A stretch of DNA of 7,420 bases, from positions 1 to 7,420 of the forward strand of contig QNDJ01000064.1 of assembly GCA_003644825.1 (NCBI GenBank), read 5' to 3'. This DNA comes from B21-G16 sp003644825 [NCBI: Candidatus Zhuqueibacterota bacterium]. Its GTDB lineage: Bacteria; SM23-31; B21-G16. The notes under the pieces are model-generated. The model saw nothing but the letters and a program-made list of their open reading frames with translations, was not told the origin of the DNA and did not search any database. The position numbers and the translations under genes are program-made. Below, piece by piece: positions 1 to 7,420 of this stretch (its first letter is position 1; the number at the start of each line of letters is the position of its first letter).

Positions 1-899
1 ATTAAGTATAAGATGAAAGAAGCAATCAATGCAAAGTTAAAAAGATAAATAATTGCAGAGAAGATCTTCACTCTATTGGGATGCAATTTGAATTTTGATG
101 CGTGTCTTATTCTCTGCGAGAAGAATTTACTGAAATTAAAATCTATAAAGCTTGGTACTCTGGATTCTTTTTCTGTTGCATAACGTATATTAAATTTTTC
201 TATTTTTGCGATTTTATGTAAAAGTAAATCGTCATCACCTGAGATAGCTTTTTCTATACCTTCAAAACCATGGACCTCAAAAAAGATATTTTTTCTATAA
301 GCAAGGTTTCTACCACTGCAGGTAAGGGGAAAGTTCAGGCTTATACTGCCTGCTGAAACCCCAGCAAGGGATAAAGAATCAATGTAAAGAATCCCTGAAA
401 GTATTGATGAAGAATTTTTTTTTAACAGGACCGGAGAAAAACCAATTACAAGGGAAATTTTTTTGTCGAAATGTTTCGTAATAGATGAAATCCAGGTTTT
501 CGGGGGTCTGCAGTCTGCATCGGTTGTCAGAATTATTTCCCCGTTTGAGGCTTCAATACCAGATTTTATTGCAAATTTCTTGGGCGAAAATTCAGAGGGT
601 ATATCTTTTATGTTTATCAGATGAATATTATCAAATTTTTGTGAATATTTCCTTGCAAATAGTTCCGTTCTATCTTCAGACCTATCATTAACGATTATTA
701 TCTCAAAATCTGGATAATCCTGATTAATAAGATGTTTAACACAATCATCAATATTGTTTTCTTCATTTCTTGCAGGAACAATAACTGAAACCTTATATAA
801 AGAATTACATTTACATTTTTTAAGTTTTAATAAACCGTGTAAAAGGAGGATAACGGTCAGGAAATAAGTGGAGCTCAGAATAACCAGTAGCTCATTCAT
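1..899 (-). CDS. Membrane-associated family 2 glycosyltransferase, 3' end cut by window edge
   Basis: The first 299 residues are visible, read from ATG at 899 to the window edge with no stop. Known for the family: GT2 enzymes move a sugar from a nucleotide-sugar donor to a lipid or polysaccharide acceptor at the cytoplasmic membrane. Seen: an N-terminal hydrophobic helix (about residues 4-26); the GT-A opening VSVIVPARNEENN (37-49); IIIVNDRSEDRT (67-78); a DxD-type metal site in TTDADC (125-130); the acidic GDDDLLLHKI motif (221-230), where the catalytic base is expected; a QRIRHASKF motif (262-270), matching the family's Q-R-x-R-W region with His in place of Trp; and a second hydrophobic stretch (about 279-299) running into the edge. 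The start is fixed by the ATGA overlap with the upstream gene's stop and by a GGAAG sequence just before it. Donor and acceptor cannot be told. The family call is firm; a role in cell-surface glycan or glycolipid synthesis is inference. Confidence 0.9.
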   Translation of the reverse strand, partial: MNELLVILSSTYFLTVILLLHGLLKLKKCKCNSLYKVSVIVPARNEENNIDDCVKHLINQDYPDFEIIIVNDRSEDRTELFARKYSQKFDNIHLINIKDIPSEFSPKKFAIKSGIEASNGEIILTTDADCRPPKTWISSITKHFDKKISLVIGFSPVLLKKNSSSILSGILYIDSLSLAGVSAGSISLNFPLTCSGRNLAYRKNIFFEVHGFEGIEKAISGDDDLLLHKIAKIEKFNIRYATEKESRVPSFIDFNFSKFFSQRIRHASKFKLHPNRVKIFSAIIYLFNFALIASFILYL

Positions 900-3800
900 T
901 TTCTTCCATTGGAGTTCATATAATTTTTAGCCTGAAACATAAATGCTTCGAGGTATGTAGTAACACTTACTTCATCCTGTTGACCATCGTAAGCCAGGTT
1001 AATCCAGGGGACGTTGTTAAAATCTTCTTTTACCTTTTTTGAGATAGCAGTAACAATAGTTCCTGGGAGGCAGGAAAAAGGCATAACATTAGCAATACCA
1101 GATGCTCCTTTATTGATGTAGTCAATAGATTTACCGATACTGAGGATAGCTTCTCCTCCGAAGGTGCAGTGCATATAAGGTTCTGCATACTTGAGTATTT
1201 CAGGAACGGGAGTATCATGGTTATATCTGAGGTATTTTTTAAATGGTTTGTATATTTTATGTTCATCGCTTCTCTGCACCTTATCAGTGAGTAGGGCAAT
1301 AAAGTATTCTTTATAATTTCTATCTTCGATACTATCTTCAATCCATCTAACATTTGTGTACAGGATCCACTCAGCCATAGGAGCGAGCCATACTTCGCCG
1401 CCCAGGCTTTCTATTCTATCAATAAGATAACTATTAGAGAATCTGTTTAATCTCAGGAATATTTCACCAATCATTCCGATAGCTGGTTTCAAATTTGTTT
1501 TATCTGTTTTAATATTTGCCATTTTATTTCTTAATTTTTCGAGAACATCGTATACTTCTTTACCTTCTTCCATAGCCTGAGTGAGCTCTTCGAGGCACTG
1601 TTTGTATACTCTGTTTGTTTCTCCTTTGTTAATTTCATAGGGTCTGATTTCTCTTACCATTTTTTCGAGGACATCAACAGCGAGTAGAGCTCTCCATCCT
1701 TTTCTTCTGAAGCTTTTATCTACTTCTCCCAGGTCAGAGTATGAGTTTCCTGAGGTGGGTGAAATAATCGGAATATCAGCGTGTCCGAGTTCTTTAAGAG
1801 CTATAGCCTGGATAGTTCTGTACTGCCCGAATCTGCAGGGACCTGAAGCTGTAGGCATAAAGAAAGCTGAATTTTTCTTATCGAAATCCGGGCTCATTAT
1901 TTTCGTTAGAATATCGCCTGTAGTAACAATACAGGGGTAGCACTCTTTACCTGTAGTATACTTTCTTCCAAGGTCAGAAGATTCAGGTGTTGGTTCAGGT
2001 AAGACCTCTGCGTCAATACCACATTGCCTGAAAACAGCAGCCATTGGAAGAGCATGATTACTCATATACGGTATATACAGTTTCATACCCTTTTTTGCAG
2101 GTGTTAAAATCTCAAAAGTTTCTATTTCTTTTTCATCCTGTTTAGCTCCTTCAAGGCTATCCAGAAAAGCTTCACATCTTGTAATTATTCCTGCATCTGC
2201 ACTGTGTTCATCAACTTCAAGTTGCAGGACGGGTTTTTTACCGATACTGTCTCTGAATAAATGTATGATCATTGAGTCCGGACCACAACCGAAATTAGTA
2301 ATGTAGACGCCGAATATATTTTTGTATTTCTTGATAAATTCTGCAGCGGCAATAATTTTTTGCCCATATCTCCAGTACATATTAGGGAATTTTTTCCAGA
2401 TGTTTTCCTGTTTCAGAGGTAAGAAATCGAGAGGGATAGCAAGAACACCGAGGTCTCTCAATTTTTTTGGAATTTCCATGTTAAGGCCTTCATCACAGGT
2501 ATTGTATGGTCTTCCGATGAGGACAAAAGCCTTCTGGTCTTCTTTCAGGTTTTCAATAATTTCTCTACCACGAGCCAGTATTTTTTCTGAGAATTCTCTC
2601 TGGGATTTTTCGGCCATTTCCAAGGCTTTTTCTATTTTTCTGGATTTTATTTTTAATGGTTTCAGGACCCTTTTTAATTCATTCAGCAGAAGTTTTTTTC
2701 CTTTCATAAATTTTAGATGTGGTGTCAGGACTTTTATTCCTCTTTTTTTAACTCCGATACTTGCCTCGATGGTATATGGTGAAGACTGGACAAAGGGGCA
2801 GTTATAACTCTGAGTAAACCCAGGGTGTTCTTTTTCAAGGTTGATAATACTTGGTAAAAATAAGTAGTCTATATCTTTTTTGATGATGTTAAGCACGTGT
2901 CCGTGAGCACATTTCACAGGAAAACAGAATTCTGCAGCGACATTTTCACTTCCTGCATTAATTACAGTTTTTGTAGTTCTATCTGAGAGGACAATCTCAA
3001 AGCCCAATTCTTCAAAAAATGTTCTCCAGAAGGGAAAATTCTCGAAGAACTGGAGCATTCTCGGGATACCAATTCTCGGTTTTCTTTTTTCGGGACTTTT
3101 TTCAGGTTTTTGATTTTTTTCAGTTTTGTCATAATATTTTCCCATAAGCAGTTTTTCTCGTTCCTCGAACAGGTCAGGAAGGTTTTCACCCAGTTTTTGT
3201 TTTTTATCGAAATCGTACTTTTCACATCTGCTTCCATAAAACAATGGTTTTTCATTTTCAATCTGAACCTTTTTAATTTCACACACATTTGAGCAGCCGT
3301 GACATACAAAAGTTGAGATGGTATATTTTCTTCTTGATAAATCAAATCCTTTAAACCTGCTTTCTCCTTTATTTTTTCTTTCCATAGCCAGGATTGCAGC
3401 ACCGATAGCACCGAGGACATCGTTGTGAGGTGGTACGGTAATTTTTTTACCTGTTATCTTTTCAAAAGCTGCAACTACTGCTCTATTTTCTGCAGTTCCG
3501 CCCTGAAAGAAAATATTGTTTCCAATTCTTTTTTTGCCAACGACCCTGTTGAGGTAATTGAGAACTATTGAATAAGCCAGGCCTGAGACCAGTTCTTCCT
3601 TGGTGGCGCCGGCCTGTTGTTCGGAGACCAGGTCAGATTCAATAAAAACGGTGCATCTTTCACCAAGTTTTGATGGGCACTCACATTTCATAGCTATCGA
3701 TTCAAATTCTCTTTTAATATTAATCCCCAATCTTTCAGCCTGTTCTTCGAGAAAGGAACCGGTTCCAGCGGCACAGACTTTATTCATTTCAAAATCTACT

Positions 3801-5113
3801 ATAACTCCATTATCCAGAGAGATATATTTTGAGTCCTGCCCACCAATTTCGAAGATTGTATCGACAGTTTTATCATACTGTAAAGCACCTACAGCCTGGG
3901 CAGTTATTTCATTTCTCACAACATCTGCCCCCACAAAATCCCCGATAAGATACCTTCCTGAGCCTGTAGTGGCGACCCCTTTTATGACTACTTTATCAGC
4001 GATTTCGTTTCCGACTTCTTCCAGTCCCTGCCTTACGGCTTCAATTGGTCTTCCTGCAGTGGCAAGGTATTTTCTCGATAGAACATTTTTATCTTTATCG
4101 ATAGCCACAACATTTGTACTCACAGAACCTACATCTATACCCAGGTATGCCTCGATTTTCTCACCTTTGTATGTAATCCCGCTTTTTCCCTGGTTTTTTA
4201 CTGATTTATCGAGAGTGAGCTTAGCGAGGTTGCTTTTTCTTTTTTGCGTTGTTTTGTCAAATTTTTCGAGGAGGGAAAGGTCAGGAAACTTTCTTAATTT
4301 TCCGGAATCGAGCTCAAATAGAGCAGCACCAATAGCTCCTATGCAGGTATGGTGTTCCGGGATAATCAATTCTCCGGGTTCAAGACCGATAACATCTTCA
4401 AAAGCCTTTACCATACCTTTATTTGATGCAACACCACCGATGAATGCAATGGGTTTTTCGAGTATTTTTCCTTTGGCGATACTGCTTTTAAAATTTCTTG
4501 CTACGGCGTAGCACAAACCTGCAACAATATCATAATCAGGGGTTGCAATCTGTTGAAGATGAATCATATCGCTTTTAGCAAAGACGGAACATCTTCCAGC
4601 GATTCTTGGTGGGTTTTTTGATTTTAAAGCAAGTTCGGCGAACTCGTTTTCAATATTTATTCCGAGGCGAGAGGCCTGCTGGTCAAGAAATGCACCGGTA
4701 CCCGCTGCACAGGCGGCATTCATTGAAAAATCTTTCAGAATTGTTTTTTTACCTTCAATTCTCTCCAGAATGAGAAGTTTTGAATCCTCACCACCAAGTT
4801 CTATAACTGTTTTCAAATCAGGCAGTAAATATCCGATACCATTTGTTACAGAAATAACCTCATTTGTGTAGTTTAAATTAAGCACATCTGCTATTATTTT
4901 TCCACCGGTTCCTGTTATACCAATTCCAAGAATAAGTTCAGGATTGTAAGTTTTGGTTAAATCTTTGACTACTCGTACCACTGTTTCAATCGGTTGACCA
5001 AAATGACGGAAATATCGGTCCTCAATTATGTTTTTTTCTTTATCAATTAAAGCGATGTTTACACTAACGGAGCCTATATCTATACCCAGATAATATAAGG
5101 AATTATCTTTCAT
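896..5113 (-). CDS. Giant CoA-activase / 2-hydroxyacyl-CoA dehydratase-related fusion protein (two BadF/BcrA-type ATPase domains + DUF2229 + HgdB-like regions)
   Basis: The protein has 1405 residues, close to the usual length of this fused family. Domain 1 (about 8-270) and domain 2 (about 323-578) are both ASKHA-fold activases. Each has a phosphate motif (LGIDIGSVS 9-17; LGIDVGSVSTN 324-334), an adenosine/phosphate motif (LGGEDSK 106-112; IGGQDSK 423-429), the CAAGTG loop (Cys135; Cys447) and a GRC/ERC motif (Cys175; Cys487). In HgdC-type activases the equivalent two cysteines per subunit bridge one [4Fe-4S] cluster in a homodimer. A linker has CHGC...C...C (Cys604, 607, 611, 630). A DUF2229-type region follows (about 679-900; Cys730, 735, 772, IGRPYN 866-871), then HgdB-like segments with FGCGPDS (Cys943), EVDEHSADAG (966-975), GKECYPC (Cys1058, 1061), GPCRFGQY (Cys1093), and Cys1316 and Cys1348. 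By analogy with the family it should use ATP to drive low-potential electron transfer; its substrate is unknown. It is probably cytoplasmic, as no signal peptide is seen. The ATG follows a good Shine-Dalgarno site, and the gene is upstream of and coupled to the glycosyltransferase gene. Confidence 0.95.
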   Translation of the reverse strand: MKDNSLYYLGIDIGSVSVNIALIDKEKNIIEDRYFRHFGQPIETVVRVVKDLTKTYNPELILGIGITGTGGKIIADVLNLNYTNEVISVTNGIGYLLPDLKTVIELGGEDSKLLILERIEGKKTILKDFSMNAACAAGTGAFLDQQASRLGINIENEFAELALKSKNPPRIAGRCSVFAKSDMIHLQQIATPDYDIVAGLCYAVARNFKSSIAKGKILEKPIAFIGGVASNKGMVKAFEDVIGLEPGELIIPEHHTCIGAIGAALFELDSGKLRKFPDLSLLEKFDKTTQKRKSNLAKLTLDKSVKNQGKSGITYKGEKIEAYLGIDVGSVSTNVVAIDKDKNVLSRKYLATAGRPIEAVRQGLEEVGNEIADKVVIKGVATTGSGRYLIGDFVGADVVRNEITAQAVGALQYDKTVDTIFEIGGQDSKYISLDNGVIVDFEMNKVCAAGTGSFLEEQAERLGINIKREFESIAMKCECPSKLGERCTVFIESDLVSEQQAGATKEELVSGLAYSIVLNYLNRVVGKKRIGNNIFFQGGTAENRAVVAAFEKITGKKITVPPHNDVLGAIGAAILAMERKNKGESRFKGFDLSRRKYTISTFVCHGCSNVCEIKKVQIENEKPLFYGSRCEKYDFDKKQKLGENLPDLFEEREKLLMGKYYDKTEKNQKPEKSPEKRKPRIGIPRMLQFFENFPFWRTFFEELGFEIVLSDRTTKTVINAGSENVAAEFCFPVKCAHGHVLNIIKKDIDYLFLPSIINLEKEHPGFTQSYNCPFVQSSPYTIEASIGVKKRGIKVLTPHLKFMKGKKLLLNELKRVLKPLKIKSRKIEKALEMAEKSQREFSEKILARGREIIENLKEDQKAFVLIGRPYNTCDEGLNMEIPKKLRDLGVLAIPLDFLPLKQENIWKKFPNMYWRYGQKIIAAAEFIKKYKNIFGVYITNFGCGPDSMIIHLFRDSIGKKPVLQLEVDEHSADAGIITRCEAFLDSLEGAKQDEKEIETFEILTPAKKGMKLYIPYMSNHALPMAAVFRQCGIDAEVLPEPTPESSDLGRKYTTGKECYPCIVTTGDILTKIMSPDFDKKNSAFFMPTASGPCRFGQYRTIQAIALKELGHADIPIISPTSGNSYSDLGEVDKSFRRKGWRALLAVDVLEKMVREIRPYEINKGETNRVYKQCLEELTQAMEEGKEVYDVLEKLRNKMANIKTDKTNLKPAIGMIGEIFLRLNRFSNSYLIDRIESLGGEVWLAPMAEWILYTNVRWIEDSIEDRNYKEYFIALLTDKVQRSDEHKIYKPFKKYLRYNHDTPVPEILKYAEPYMHCTFGGEAILSIGKSIDYINKGASGIANVMPFSCLPGTIVTAISKKVKEDFNNVPWINLAYDGQQDEVSVTTYLEAFMFQAKNYMNSNGRK

Positions 5114-5116
5114 TTA

Positions 5117-5125
5117 CACCCCTTC
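5117..5125 (-). promoter_or_regulatory. Ribosome binding site of the giant activase gene
   Basis: Read on the minus strand this is GAAGGGGTG, about five bases before the ATG at 5113. It is a strong purine-rich Shine-Dalgarno sequence and supports the chosen start, which also places the first ATPase motif at residue 9, as expected for the family. Confidence 0.7.
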
Positions 5126-5172
5126 AATGTTTTTGTAAAGGAATAAATTTTAATAAAGATTCTAAAGCACAA

Positions 5173-5201
5173 AATTTAATATTTTATATCTGAATAATCA
5201 A
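5173..5201 (-). promoter_or_regulatory. Weak candidate sigma-70-type promoter for the two-gene operon
   Basis: On the minus strand, TTGATT (5201-5196) is followed after 17 bases by TAAATT (5178-5173). This is a partial match to -35 and -10 boxes and would give a leader of about 50 bases before the start codon. The region is so AT-rich that such matches arise by chance, and the organism's own promoter consensus is unknown. Confidence 0.2.
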
Positions 5202-5297
5202 GATTTATTTTTTTATGGTAGTGTATGAGCAATTTCTTAATAATAAATAATGTAGTGAAGTTATCCTGATATATAGTTAAATTGTTTTTTCTATATC

Positions 5298-5311
5298 GCT
5301 CCTTATGGAGC
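5298..5311. repeat. Solitary R-type hairpin (GCTCC-ttat-GGAGC)
   Basis: This is a perfect 5-bp stem with a four-base loop, preceded by TATATC. It belongs to the same family as the R hairpins at 5588, 5642 and 5965 but lies outside the tandem units, about 185 bases upstream of the activase start. It is therefore an independent insertion or a remnant of a further, decayed unit. Confidence 0.65.
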
Positions 5312-5434
5312 TTTTCTTTATGATATTTTTAATCGTATAGTTTTGGTTAATTTATAAAGATTTTTCAGCCTGTAAATTCTCTTAATTATGAATTAAAGTT
5401 TTTTTAAAGATTTTCTTCGGAGTGGAATTTTAAC

Positions 5435-5458
5435 AGGTCGGGCAGGGATGCCCGACCT
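5435..5458 (+). repeat. Hairpin P1, unit A
   Basis: AGGTCGGGCA and TGCCCGACCT form a perfect 10-bp stem around a GGGA loop. A run of eight T follows three bases later (5463-5470), so on the plus strand it has the shape of an intrinsic terminator. No plus-strand gene lies before it, and the T run is absent from units B and C. Confidence 0.8.
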
Positions 5459-5535
5459 ACGGTTTTTTTTGTGTTACATCAGTAAAATAAGTACTTATTC
5501 TATTTATCTTGTAATACTTCAAATTATTGAAAAAG

Positions 5536-5564
5536 ATTGCTTCACCCCATATGGGGCTCGCAAT
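5536..5564 (+). repeat. Hairpin N1, unit A (ATTGC...GCAATGAC family)
   Basis: The outer arms ATTGC and GCAAT enclose a perfect inner palindrome CCCCATATGGGG (5545-5556) and are followed by GACAGG. It resembles the widespread intergenic repeat that reads TCATTGCGAG...GTGGCAATC on the other strand. Confidence 0.75.
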
Positions 5565-5587
5565 GACAGGTATTGTTTTGATTAAAA

Positions 5588-5654
5588 GCTCCGCCAGTAG
5601 CGGTATGTTTGTAGAATTGAGGATTTTTAATAGGACATTGAGCTCTGTAGGAGC
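5588..5654 (+). repeat. Hairpins R1 and R2, unit A (REP-like pair)
   Basis: R1 has CCGC/GCGG arms (5591-5594, 5600-5603) followed by GTATGTTTGTAG. R2 has GCTC/GAGC arms (5642-5645, 5651-5654) with a T-G pair inside, followed by GATATGG. They are the same family in the same orientation, with about 40 bases between them. Confidence 0.7.
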
Positions 5655-5676
5655 GATATGGGATATTAAAAAACAA

Positions 5677-5693
5677 GGCATGGTAATCGTGCC
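5677..5693 (+). repeat. Weak hairpin G, unit A
   Basis: GGCA and TGCC form a 4-bp stem with a nine-base loop. It is degraded in unit B (6649-6664). It is listed because it occupies the mirror position of hairpin H5. Confidence 0.35.
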
Positions 5694-5719
5694 ATAAAAA
5701 TATTTTTTAATTCTATTTC

Positions 5720-5742
5720 GCACCAGAATCGAATTCTGGTGC
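5720..5742 (+). repeat. Hairpin H1, unit A
   Basis: GCACCAGAAT and ATTCTGGTGC form a perfect 10-bp stem with a CGA loop. It shares its CCAGAAT/ATTCTGG core with H4. Confidence 0.8.
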
Positions 5743-5760
5743 TGGAATAATATAATGGTA

Positions 5761-5776
5761 AGTCATTAAAATGACT
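5761..5776 (+). repeat. Hairpin H2, unit A
   Basis: AGTCAT and ATGACT form a 6-bp stem with a TAAA loop. It is followed by G and ten T (5778-5787). The T run is only four long in unit B, so a terminator role is doubtful. Confidence 0.65.
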
Positions 5777-5822
5777 GTTTTTTTTTTAAGGATTATAACT
5801 TTTATTGTTAAAATTAAATAAT

Positions 5823-5838
5823 AGTCTCTTTAGAGACT
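5823..5838 (+). repeat. Hairpin H3, unit A
   Basis: AGTCTCT and AGAGACT pair around TT. Read on the opposite strand it matches H2 in length and flanks, so it is H2's inverted partner. Confidence 0.7.
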
Positions 5839-5854
5839 TCCATAGAATATTTAC

Positions 5855-5881
5855 CACTACCAGAATTTGATTCTGGTAGTG
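5855..5881 (+). repeat. Hairpin H4, unit A
   Basis: CACTACCAGAAT and ATTCTGGTAGTG form a perfect 12-bp stem with a TTG loop. It is the inverted partner of H1. No T run follows, so it is not an intrinsic terminator. Confidence 0.8.
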
Positions 5882-5908
5882 ATTCGTTATAATTCAAATA
5901 TTTACAAT

Positions 5909-5927
5909 CTCAAGCTGGAAGCTTGAG
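5909..5927 (+). repeat. Hairpin H5, unit A
   Basis: CTCAAGCT and AGCTTGAG form a perfect 8-bp stem with a GGA loop, followed by TTACAC. It is conserved in unit B. Confidence 0.75.
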
Positions 5928-5964
5928 TTACACATATCCATAATCAAATTGATATTTATATGTC

Positions 5965-6028
5965 GCACCTACGGAGCTCTATTGTTGTTTTTTCCAGTTT
6001 GCTACAAACATATCGCCCCTAACGAGGC
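5965..6028 (-). repeat. Hairpins R3 and R4, unit A (inverted partners of R2 and R1)
   Basis: R3 has GCACC/GGAGC arms with one mismatch (5965-5969, 5973-5977). R4 has GCCCC/GAGGC arms with one mismatch (6015-6019, 6024-6028). R4 is preceded by CTACAAACATATC, the reverse complement of the tail of R1, so the pair lies in opposite orientation to R1/R2. Confidence 0.7.
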
Positions 6029-6201
6029 TAAAAGGGACAGTGAATTTCGCCGATTTAATGAATTTTAGTTTTTAAGGAAACAGCGAATTACACGGATTAC
6101 TCTAATTTGTATATAAAAAGATTCTTTTATGAAGTTTGATTTGTTAAAAATCTGATGTTATTGTAACAGATTCATAAGTAAAGAAGTAAAATACAGTTGT
6201 C
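6029..6201. other. Conserved right-arm insert, unit A
   Basis: About 150 bp here have no counterpart in the left arm of the unit. The segment is highly conserved with 6997-7168. It holds an imperfect hairpin (AATCTG 6149-6154 with CAGATT 6167-6172, inner TTA/TAA) and a GAATTACACGGATT motif resembling common degenerate intergenic repeats. It has no reading frame of note. Confidence 0.6.
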
Positions 6202-6228
6202 ATTGCGAGCCCGTACGGGCGTGGCAAT
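6202..6228 (-). repeat. Hairpin N2, unit A (inverted partner of N1)
   Basis: ATTGC and GCAAT arms enclose the perfect palindrome GCCCGTACGGGC (6209-6220). The element reads TGTCATTGCGAG to GTGGCAATCT, the opposite orientation to N1. Confidence 0.75.
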
Positions 6229-6283
6229 CTTTTAATCTAATAGAGATAAACTGTTCTATAGCTCATTTTTTACGTGTTTTTTG

Positions 6284-6305
6284 GGTCGGGCAGGGATGCC
6301 TGACC
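6284..6305 (+). repeat. Hairpin P2, unit A
   Basis: GGTCGGGCA and TGCCTGACC form a 9-bp stem with a GGGA loop. One pair (6288/6301) is G-T, an intermediate between the G-C form at 5435 and the A-T form at 7251. Confidence 0.75.
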
Positions 6306-6334
6306 TACAGCTTCGTTTAATTTCATCTGTAGAA

Positions 6335-6402
6335 CGAGTACTCGCTTGTAAATATTTTTAACATAATCAGGAGATTATTTTTACCCGTACGGGGCTCGCA
6401 AT
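6335..6402 (+). repeat. Palindrome S and hairpin N3, unit A
   Basis: S is the 10-base palindrome CGAGTACTCG (6335-6344). N3 is CCCGTACGGG (6384-6393) followed by GCTCGCAATGACAGG. It belongs to the N family in N1 orientation, and its left outer arm has decayed to GAGATTATT. Confidence 0.6.
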
Positions 6403-6418
6403 GACAGGTATGTTAACA

Positions 6419-6438
6419 GTCAGGCAGGGATGCCTGAC
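6419..6438 (+). repeat. Hairpin P1, unit B
   Basis: GTCAGGCA and TGCCTGAC form a perfect 8-bp stem with a GGGA loop. Compared with unit A, both arms have changed together (G-C to A-T). Confidence 0.8.
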
Positions 6439-6510
6439 CTACGGTTTTGATGTGTTACATCAGTAGAATAGATACCCGTGCCCATTCATAAAAGGTTTTC
6501 ACCCGGTAAG

Positions 6511-6537
6511 ATTGCTTTGCTAATAAAAGCTCGCAAT
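6511..6537 (+). repeat. Hairpin N1, unit B
   Basis: The outer ATTGC/GCAAT arms and the GACAGG tail are kept, but the CCCCATATGGGG centre of unit A is replaced. GCTTT (6514-6518) and AAAGC (6526-6530) still form a stem. Confidence 0.6.
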
Positions 6538-6560
6538 GACAGGTATTGTTTTGATTAAAA

Positions 6561-6626
6561 GCTCCGATAGGAGCGATATGTTTGTAGAATTGAGGATTTT
6601 TGAGGATATTGAGCTCCGTTAGGAGC
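6561..6626 (+). repeat. Hairpins R1 and R2, unit B
   Basis: Two perfect GCTCC/GGAGC hairpins (6561-6574 with GATA loop; 6613-6626 with GTTA loop). R1 runs into GCGATATGTTTGTAG (6573-6587). These look closer to the family consensus than the unit A copies. Confidence 0.75.
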
Positions 6627-6691
6627 GGGATGGGATATTTAAAAACCAGGCTTGGTATCGTGCCATAAAAATATTATTTAATTCTTTTTCT

Positions 6692-6714
6692 GCACCAGAA
6701 TCAAATTCTGGTGC
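6692..6714 (+). repeat. Hairpin H1, unit B
   Basis: GCACCAGAAT/ATTCTGGTGC arms as in unit A, with a CAA loop. That loop is the reverse complement of the TTG loop of H4. Confidence 0.8.
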
Positions 6715-6732
6715 TGGAATAATTCATTGGTA

Positions 6733-6748
6733 AGTCATTAAAATGACT
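6733..6748 (+). repeat. Hairpin H2, unit B
   Basis: AGTCAT/ATGACT stem with a TAAA loop, identical to unit A, followed by GTTTT only. Confidence 0.65.
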
Positions 6749-6790
6749 GTTTTAAAAGAATTATAAATTTGTTGGTAAAACCCCAATAAC

Positions 6791-6806
6791 AGTCTCTTTA
6801 GAGACT
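6791..6806 (+). repeat. Hairpin H3, unit B
   Basis: AGTCTCT/AGAGACT around TT, identical to unit A. The flanking AAC and TTCC match H2 when read on the opposite strand. Confidence 0.7.
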
Positions 6807-6822
6807 TCCATATTTTTTTATC

Positions 6823-6849
6823 CACTACCAGAATTTGATTCTGGTAGTG
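6823..6849 (+). repeat. Hairpin H4, unit B
   Basis: The 12-bp stem and TTG loop are identical to unit A. Confidence 0.8.
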
Positions 6850-6876
6850 ATTCGTTACAATTCAAATATTTACACT

Positions 6877-6895
6877 CTCAAGCTGGAAGCTTGAG
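6877..6895 (+). repeat. Hairpin H5, unit B
   Basis: The CTCAAGCT/AGCTTGAG stem with GGA loop is identical to unit A. Confidence 0.75.
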
Positions 6896-6933
6896 TTACA
6901 CTGATCCATAATCAAATTGATATTTATATGTTA

Positions 6934-6996
6934 CTCCAACGGAGCTCTATTGTTGTTTTTCCCTGTTTGCTACAAACATATCGACCCTAACGGGGC
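6934..6996 (-). repeat. Hairpins R3 and R4, unit B (inverted partners of R2 and R1)
   Basis: R3 has CTCC/GGAG arms (6934-6937, 6941-6944). R4 has CCC/GGG arms (6985-6987, 6992-6994), preceded by CTACAAACATATCG. Both arms are more decayed than R1/R2 of the same unit. Confidence 0.65.
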
Positions 6997-7168
6997 TGAA
7001 AGGAACATCGAATTTCGCCGATTTAATGAATTTTAGTTTTTAAGGAAACAACGAATTACACGGATTTATCTAATTGTATATAAAAAGATTCTTTTATGAA
7101 ATTTGATTTGTTAAAAATCTGATGTTATTGTAACAGATTCATAATTAAAGAAGTAAAATACAGCTGTC
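6997..7168. other. Conserved right-arm insert, unit B
   Basis: This is the near-identical copy of 6029-6201, including the AATCTG/CAGATT hairpin at 7116-7139. It has no coding potential and no match to an RNA family that I recognise. Confidence 0.6.
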
Positions 7169-7198
7169 ATTGCGAGCCCCTATATGGGGCGTGGCAAT
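7169..7198 (-). repeat. Hairpin N2, unit B
   Basis: ATTGC/GCAAT outer arms with an inner GCCCC/GGGGC stem (7176-7180, 7186-7190) and a TATAT loop. Unit A has GCCCG/CGGGC at this place, so pairing is kept with different bases. Confidence 0.7.
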
Positions 7199-7250
7199 CT
7201 TTTAATCTAATAGAGATAAACTGTGCTATAGCTCATTTTTTACGTGTTTT

Positions 7251-7280
7251 TTTAGGTCAGGCATGGATGCCTGACCTAAA
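7251..7280 (+). repeat. Hairpin P2, unit B
   Basis: TTTAGGTCAGGCA and TGCCTGACCTAAA form a perfect 13-bp stem with a TGGA loop. It is the longest hairpin in the window and the only P copy whose outer flanks also pair. Confidence 0.8.
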
Positions 7281-7305
7281 GCTTCGTTTAATTTCATCTT
7301 TAGAA

Positions 7306-7373
7306 CGAGTACTCGCTTGTAAATATTTCTAACATAGTCAGGAGATTATTTTTACCCGTACGGGGCTCGCAAT
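7306..7373 (+). repeat. Palindrome S and hairpin N3, unit B
   Basis: CGAGTACTCG (7306-7315) and CCCGTACGGG (7355-7364) followed by GCTCGCAATGACAGG, as in unit A. Confidence 0.6.
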
Positions 7374-7383
7374 GACAGGTATG

Positions 7384-7420
7384 TTAACAGTCAGGCAGGG
7401 ATGCCTGACCTACGGTTTTG
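7384..7420 (+). repeat. Start of composite hairpin repeat unit C, cut by window edge
   Basis: TTAACA followed by the P1 hairpin (stem 7390-7397 with 7402-7409) and the ACGGTTTTG tail repeats the start of unit B exactly as far as the window goes. The array therefore continues to the right. Confidence 0.85.

Follow-up and report, generated by a model that had tools for sequence, protein, structure and literature searches.

The stretch of DNA analysed here, called the window in the following, comprises 7,420 nucleotides of contig C64 from a draft genome of 2.48 Mb (493 contigs, 83.6% complete). On its minus strand, positions 896-5113 encode a 1405-residue protein of the acyl-CoA dehydratase activase type, which carries two BcrAD_BadFG stretches and a DUF2229 region. 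The 3′ end of the contig is occupied by an array of about 2 kb, in which two units follow each other in tandem at a distance of about 970 bp. No ORF of at least 90 aa was found in the DNA of this array. The following features were assigned:

5292-5313, minus strand: R unit standing alone between the gene (896-5113) and the array, with two mismatches to the R pattern
5432-6412, plus strand: tandem unit 1 of the mosaic array
5433-5460, plus strand: Q palindrome, a GTAG-type REP when read on the minus strand
5533-5568, minus strand: N1, a CGTC-type REP palindrome that carries the tag TGTC
5587-5614, plus strand: R1, an asymmetric palindrome with its tail towards the core
5641-5660, plus strand: R2, the second member of the R dimer
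5677-5693, no strand: G, a weak hairpin whose sequence differs in other copies and which is not homologous to H5
5720-5742, no strand: H1, the left outer hairpin of the core
5760-5776, no strand: H2, the left inner hairpin of the core
5823-5839, no strand: H3, the right inner hairpin of the core
5855-5881, no strand: H4, the right outer hairpin of the core, of the same palindrome family as H1
5909-5927, plus strand: hairpin H5, with GTAA before it on the minus strand
5963-5979, minus strand: R3, an inverted R2, with its end read from the sequence and its core (5965-5978) placed by exact match
6002-6029, minus strand: R4, an inverted R1
6081-6107, plus strand: X repeat, its start taken from a profile match and its end set by eye
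6198-6231, plus strand: N2, an inverted copy of N1 in an off-centre position
6415-7420, plus strand: tandem unit 2, in the same order and reaching the contig end

When BLAST and profile maps are combined, both units read Q-N-R-R-G-H1-H2-H3-H4-H5-R-R-X-N-Q-W-N. R3 and the first N of unit 2 are each visible in one map only (BLAST or profile), and in the profile maps the H2 and H3 profiles were single-sequence profiles that were not iterated. Positions 6413-7281 of unit 2 are 86% identical to unit 1. By eye, an N on the plus strand after the R pair was seen only in the two units of the window among the maps of 40 contig pieces.

The initial annotation had described the hairpins of unit 1 as a nested mirror image, with H3 and H4 as inverted H2 and H1 and with the R and N elements inverted around them. 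This order is real, and all elements named could be located by exact match. Alignment of 5530-5799 with the inverted 5800-6230, which had been proposed as a check, gave a score of 58, compared with 21.5 ± 2.6 (maximum 33) for shuffled sequences, none of which reached 58 in 500 trials. With a second scoring, the inverted alignment reached 56 (shuffles 21.5 ± 3.2, maximum 32), and direct, non-inverted alignment of the two halves gave 24, which is at shuffle level. The midpoints of the pairs agree with those claimed, lying at 5799.5 for both H2/H3 and H1/H4, at 5801.5 for G/H5, at 5811 for R2/R3 and at 5808 for R1/R4. N2 is also an inverted N1 as described, but the midpoint of this pair, for which no value had been given, lies off-centre at 5882.5. 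G and H5 agree in position but their sequences do not match, and the spacers said to match are of equal length in the consensus (18/18 nt between the H hairpins H1 and H2 and their counterparts, 23/23 nt between the R units), but they are not clear inverted copies of each other in sequence.

An 881-base query gave 166 matches in the genome, many of them pieces of one array or a single palindrome matched on both strands. The core H1-H2-H3-H4 recurs, and 25 copies were aligned, one of which is cut at its start. Mean identity in these copies is 92.9% in hairpin columns and 68.9% in linker columns. R orientation was counted around 35 core fragments with at least two H modules in order, some of which have no R in range, partly owing to contig ends. 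Upstream of the cores, R is on the plus strand in 31 of 33 cases, both exceptions being at one cut core on C15. Downstream, it is on the minus strand in 17 of 19 cases (exceptions on C306 and C95), and the nearest N upstream of the core is on the minus strand in 15 of 16. In 21 of 26 core copies with flanks, the inverted alignment score exceeds the maximum of 200 shuffles; it ties this maximum in three (C13, C95, C99) and stays below it in two copies whose flanks are cut (C340_142, C55). The inverted score is higher than the direct score in 25 of the 26 copies, the exception being C13. In six copies (C340_765, C85, C13, C365, C84, C121), the direct score, too, lies above the shuffle maximum, because palindromes match directly as well. 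For this reason, the statement that H4 is an inverted H1 carries little weight on its own, and direction is shown by how the asymmetric R units are oriented, together with the inner-side motifs of the core. As the symmetry recurs in the core copies, the mirror is a property of the family. The view that the order is non-random is therefore confirmed, since the same order and the same mirrored orientation recur across the genome.

Profile matches in the 40 contig pieces amount to 115 for R, 60 for N, 50 for Q, 36 for H4 and 32 for H1. The H palindrome was found at 61 places genome-wide, with none for the backward control. Some copies carry a block of about 90 bp with X between H4 and H5 (e.g. 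on C171, C340, C15, C99 and C13), and by eye the upstream flanks of the core differ on C95, C84 and C121. The cores on C205, C84, C121 and C347 form a diverged subfamily in which H2 has undergone a compensatory change from U-A to C-G. Arrays often lie at contig ends in many contigs of this genome. The assembly is probably interrupted by them, and it may lack longer arrays or additional bracketed genes. None of 39 arrays examined contains an ORF of at least 100 aa.

The initial annotation had offered a structured long RNA or DNA element and an ancient large inverted duplication as possible causes of the mirror. That the whole 700 bp folds back as one molecule, whether a structured long RNA or cruciform DNA, is very improbable. 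Folding of both strands, a check that had been suggested, does yield strong predicted structures (RNA z -14.5 for the plus and -13.4 for the minus strand, DNA z -10.1 for the plus strand, 20 shuffles each), but any set of palindromes folds well. The long-range pairing H1:H4 shows no excess covariation, with 9 double-change cells compared with 9.9 in shuffles and with little variation available for this comparison. Nor are the R and H pairs concentric in all copies. The midpoint of the R pair is shifted from the H midpoint by 10.0, 9.8 and 9.8 in the two units of C64 and in C10, and by 43.0, 54.2 and 50.8 in C13, C99 and C15, where the extra block is present. R was assigned by a fuzzy expression and only these six shifts are relied upon; for further values of 22.8 (C306), -1.8 (C39), 37.8 (C186) and 63.2 (C55), the nearest R matched may belong to another unit. 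Moreover, there was no Rfam match at gathering scores, and promoter-like sites are not enriched (7 compared with 10.7 expected). A single long folded molecule is thus unsupported. The local hairpins covary weakly, chiefly via one shared change: 98.0% of their cells are paired (97.5 shuffled), and 5 cells with double changes (0.8 shuffled) include 4 that represent one U-A to C-G change. Only two local pairs show a double change, a number matched by 55 of 500 shuffles, and in H2 four of the 25 copies carry the compensatory U-A to C-G change. One ancient inverted duplication of the half-unit R-R-H1-H2, followed by amplification with selection on the hairpins and drift of the linkers, likewise seems unlikely to us. 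It would account for the palindrome common to H1 and H4 with TGG on the inner side, for the AAGTC..GACT frame common to H2 and H3 with GTTTT on the inner side in the consensus, and for consensus linker lengths that match between the arms (18/18, 23/23). Differences specific to one arm are common to most aligned core copies, which indicates that the doubling is older than the amplification. However, when the linkers of one arm were compared with the inverted linkers of the other (1000 shuffles, global and local scoring), the H1-H2 linker was equalled by 241 (global) and 814 (local) shuffles and the R-R linker by 406 and 489, which is shuffle level. The inner segment was equalled by 31 (global) and 196 (local) shuffles, and R2-H1 compared with H4-R3 by 190 or 289 globally and 17 or 25 locally, so that for both, one of the two scorings is borderline. 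In addition, G and H5 are not homologous, and the length of the right arm varies among copies. A single large inverted duplication is therefore not clearly supported by the linkers, although an older one whose linkers have since diverged may have occurred.

The arrays might also be maintained mainly because they act at gene ends as two-way terminators or topological insulators, the mirror being selected since both strands are read. We regard this as improbable for the main role. Positions 5100-7420 contain 10 terminator-like sites (six plus, four minus) compared with 1.0 ± 1.1 in shuffles, but palindromes alone raise such a count. Three of the four arrays for which both flanking ORFs are visible lie between convergent ORFs. 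On the other hand, the excess of gene 3′ ends over all visible flanks is weak, with 25 3′ and 16 5′ ORF ends facing arrays (one ORF on C78 being counted twice), and the array of the window sits 5′ of its gene. A two-way terminator or insulator role at gene ends is thus possible and weakly supported.

In the genome's own arrays, N starts with TGTC in 45 of 51 matches and Q ends with CTAC in 38 of 44. GTAG and CGTC REP types, the latter with a TGTC variant, have been described by their tags, and as far as these tag descriptions go, Q agrees with the GTAG and N, as the TGTC variant, with the CGTC superfamily (PMC3733652, in part). As read from the sequence, the stem foot of the R and H palindromes lacks both tags. 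An N-like motif is present in 50 of the 290 genomes examined, the own genome included, with none for a backward-read control. The R-R dimer pattern was found in 2 of the 290, namely the own genome and G004, which belongs to another genus of the class. G004 carries R dimers at three places (L122, L118, L120) with 22-23 nt between the R units, compared with 22-24 nt in the own genome, and profiles of H1, H5, N and Q had no match in the fetched flanks of these loci. No convincing core was found outside the own genome in shallow scans by DNA (41 genomes), by RNA model (290 genomes) and by pattern (named genomes). The DNA scan returned the own genome, G004 (R3-R4 only) and G016 (25 A+T-rich bases), and the H-core RNA model returned the own genome and G164 (E 2.4e-4, H1/H4-like matches only). 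As the RNA-model scan scored nine candidates per genome under strict filters and lists nine places for the own genome, absence elsewhere is weak evidence. The core-type pattern gave 20 stretches with one match each in the named genomes, a collection that may omit the window's own genome, and these were taken as chance. A viral or plasmid origin was considered and rejected: the R and N patterns had no match in viral contigs, and there was no plasmid or phage match. The H palindrome had three single matches in viral contigs. No report of the array or its repeat sequences appears among the literature matches listed.

Searches of the draft yielded a single full-length Y1 transposase gene and a single C-terminal piece of a RAYT. 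The full-length gene, tnpA on C338 (ORF 151-603, minus strand), is flanked by R units on the plus strand at 71-95 and 120-140 and by R units on the minus strand at 635-655 and 679-702. The same bracket of two plus and two minus R units surrounds the H core. The product scores 83.9 bits with the IS200/IS605 transposase model (cut-off 55) and 36.1 bits with the RAYT model NF047646, below its cut-off of 80. The left outer R is weak (E 0.019) and does not pass the cut-off of a second scan; the other three have E values of 1.9e-4, 2.9e-4 and 2.5e-3. Among contigs with at least two R places, C338 alone has a called ORF between them (ORF sets of at least 100 aa and at least 80 aa), in a scan that allows two mismatches and misses weaker R units. 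A segment of about 176 bp, comprising R2'-R1', a spacer and a portion of the following R, recurs on C178 (1-176, L148) with 92% identity to C338. With this recurrence, the unit could be either R1R2-tnpA-R2'R1' or R2'R1'-spacer-R1R2. R dimers border other ORFs too, as on C178, so the bracket on C338 may be a gene caught between two arrays. A tblastn search with tnpA gave no match in the long ORF beside the R dimer of C178. None of 15 Y1 loci from four other genomes of the class has an R within the fetched locus, and at four extra sites of H palindromes no bracketed gene was evident in a check that left aside the families of the ORFs. The R layer is probably tied to the C338 transposase.

Inverted REP doublets, and transposase genes between inverted REPs, are a known pattern, at least in the parts of PMC2817692 and PMC3116915 that concern them. 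The initial annotation had argued that scattered REP insertions would not give a nested mirror. This argument leaves out of account that REP-type elements are known as inverted doublets (REPINs, BIMEs) and that stacked doublets can produce such an order. We consider it reasonably likely that nested inverted doublets of REP type, amplified in the DNA between genes, make up a BIME-like mosaic here, with an R layer that is probably transposase-linked. Each of several REP-type palindrome families would have been laid down as an inverted doublet in an intergenic tandem array. Doublets within doublets would then give the nested mirror, with H1-H2 / H3-H4 inside R1-R2 / R2'-R1' and with the H core and the R doublet standing among N and Q palindromes. 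The single-strand-acting transposase of C338, or a relative, would recognise the R hairpins, and the R-bounded units so recognised would spread, with H-core units as non-autonomous passengers. Recombination or replication slippage may have caused the tandem growth of the arrays. While we infer the mobility and function of the array units, many copies have a fixed order and mirrored orientation and have kept their hairpins between variable linkers. The window also contains a tandem duplication, and R dimers stand on either side of the only full-length Y1 gene found. In the maps of 40 contig pieces, no copy lacking the core alone was noticed, though nested insertion predicts such copies.

BIMEs are intergenic clusters of short palindromes with regular spacing and inverted or alternating orientation, some of them in tandem, according to the description in part of PMC2817692. 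The genome examined here likewise holds many short palindromes, its 39 arrays are extragenic, R units are inverted relative to each other, and the tandem spacing in the window is regular at about 970 bp. In contrast to BIMEs, several palindrome families stand in one fixed mirrored order, units are near 1 kb in the window, and the core was not convincingly found in other genomes searched. This multi-family mirrored order is unusually strict. Likeness to REPIN/RAYT systems (REPtrons), as outlined in sections of PMC2817692 and PMC3116915, lies in the inverted palindrome doublet as recurring unit and in a Y1 gene between the same palindromes, inverted. However, the enzyme falls below the RAYT cut-off and scores as IS200/IS605, and R is a dimer on each side that lacks the GTAG tag at the stem foot. 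RAYT genes between inverted REPs are a known arrangement and known IS200/IS605 elements are without terminal inverted repeats, in the account given by part of PMC2817692. The gene on C338 resembles IS200/IS605 in its TnpA family and in the hairpins near both gene ends, but these flanking R dimers, candidate ends of the element, are inverted.

A bolder version of the mosaic reading is that a working IS200-type transposase, and not a RAYT, mobilises inverted R doublets, with other REP families nested inside to give multi-layer mobile mosaics. We consider this rather unlikely. If true, IS200 elements and RAYT/REPIN systems would be linked by a living intermediate, and PMC3116915, in the part bearing on it, proposes such a step as one possibility. 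The strict multi-family order and the one bracketed Y1 gene make two questions testable with one enzyme and one DNA substrate, namely how single REP palindromes came to form ordered clusters and how partnerships of REPs with transposases arose from IS200-like elements.

The RAYT C-terminal piece lies on C167 and scores 49.1 bits; the 1500 bases examined there gave no module match. On this contig (L051:125-1690), the C-terminal RAYT stretch shares a single open frame with a DUF1156 antiphage-type methylase region, which scores 106.9 bits, far short of the model cut-off of 1000. The joined frame may reflect either a fusion or an artefact of assembly.
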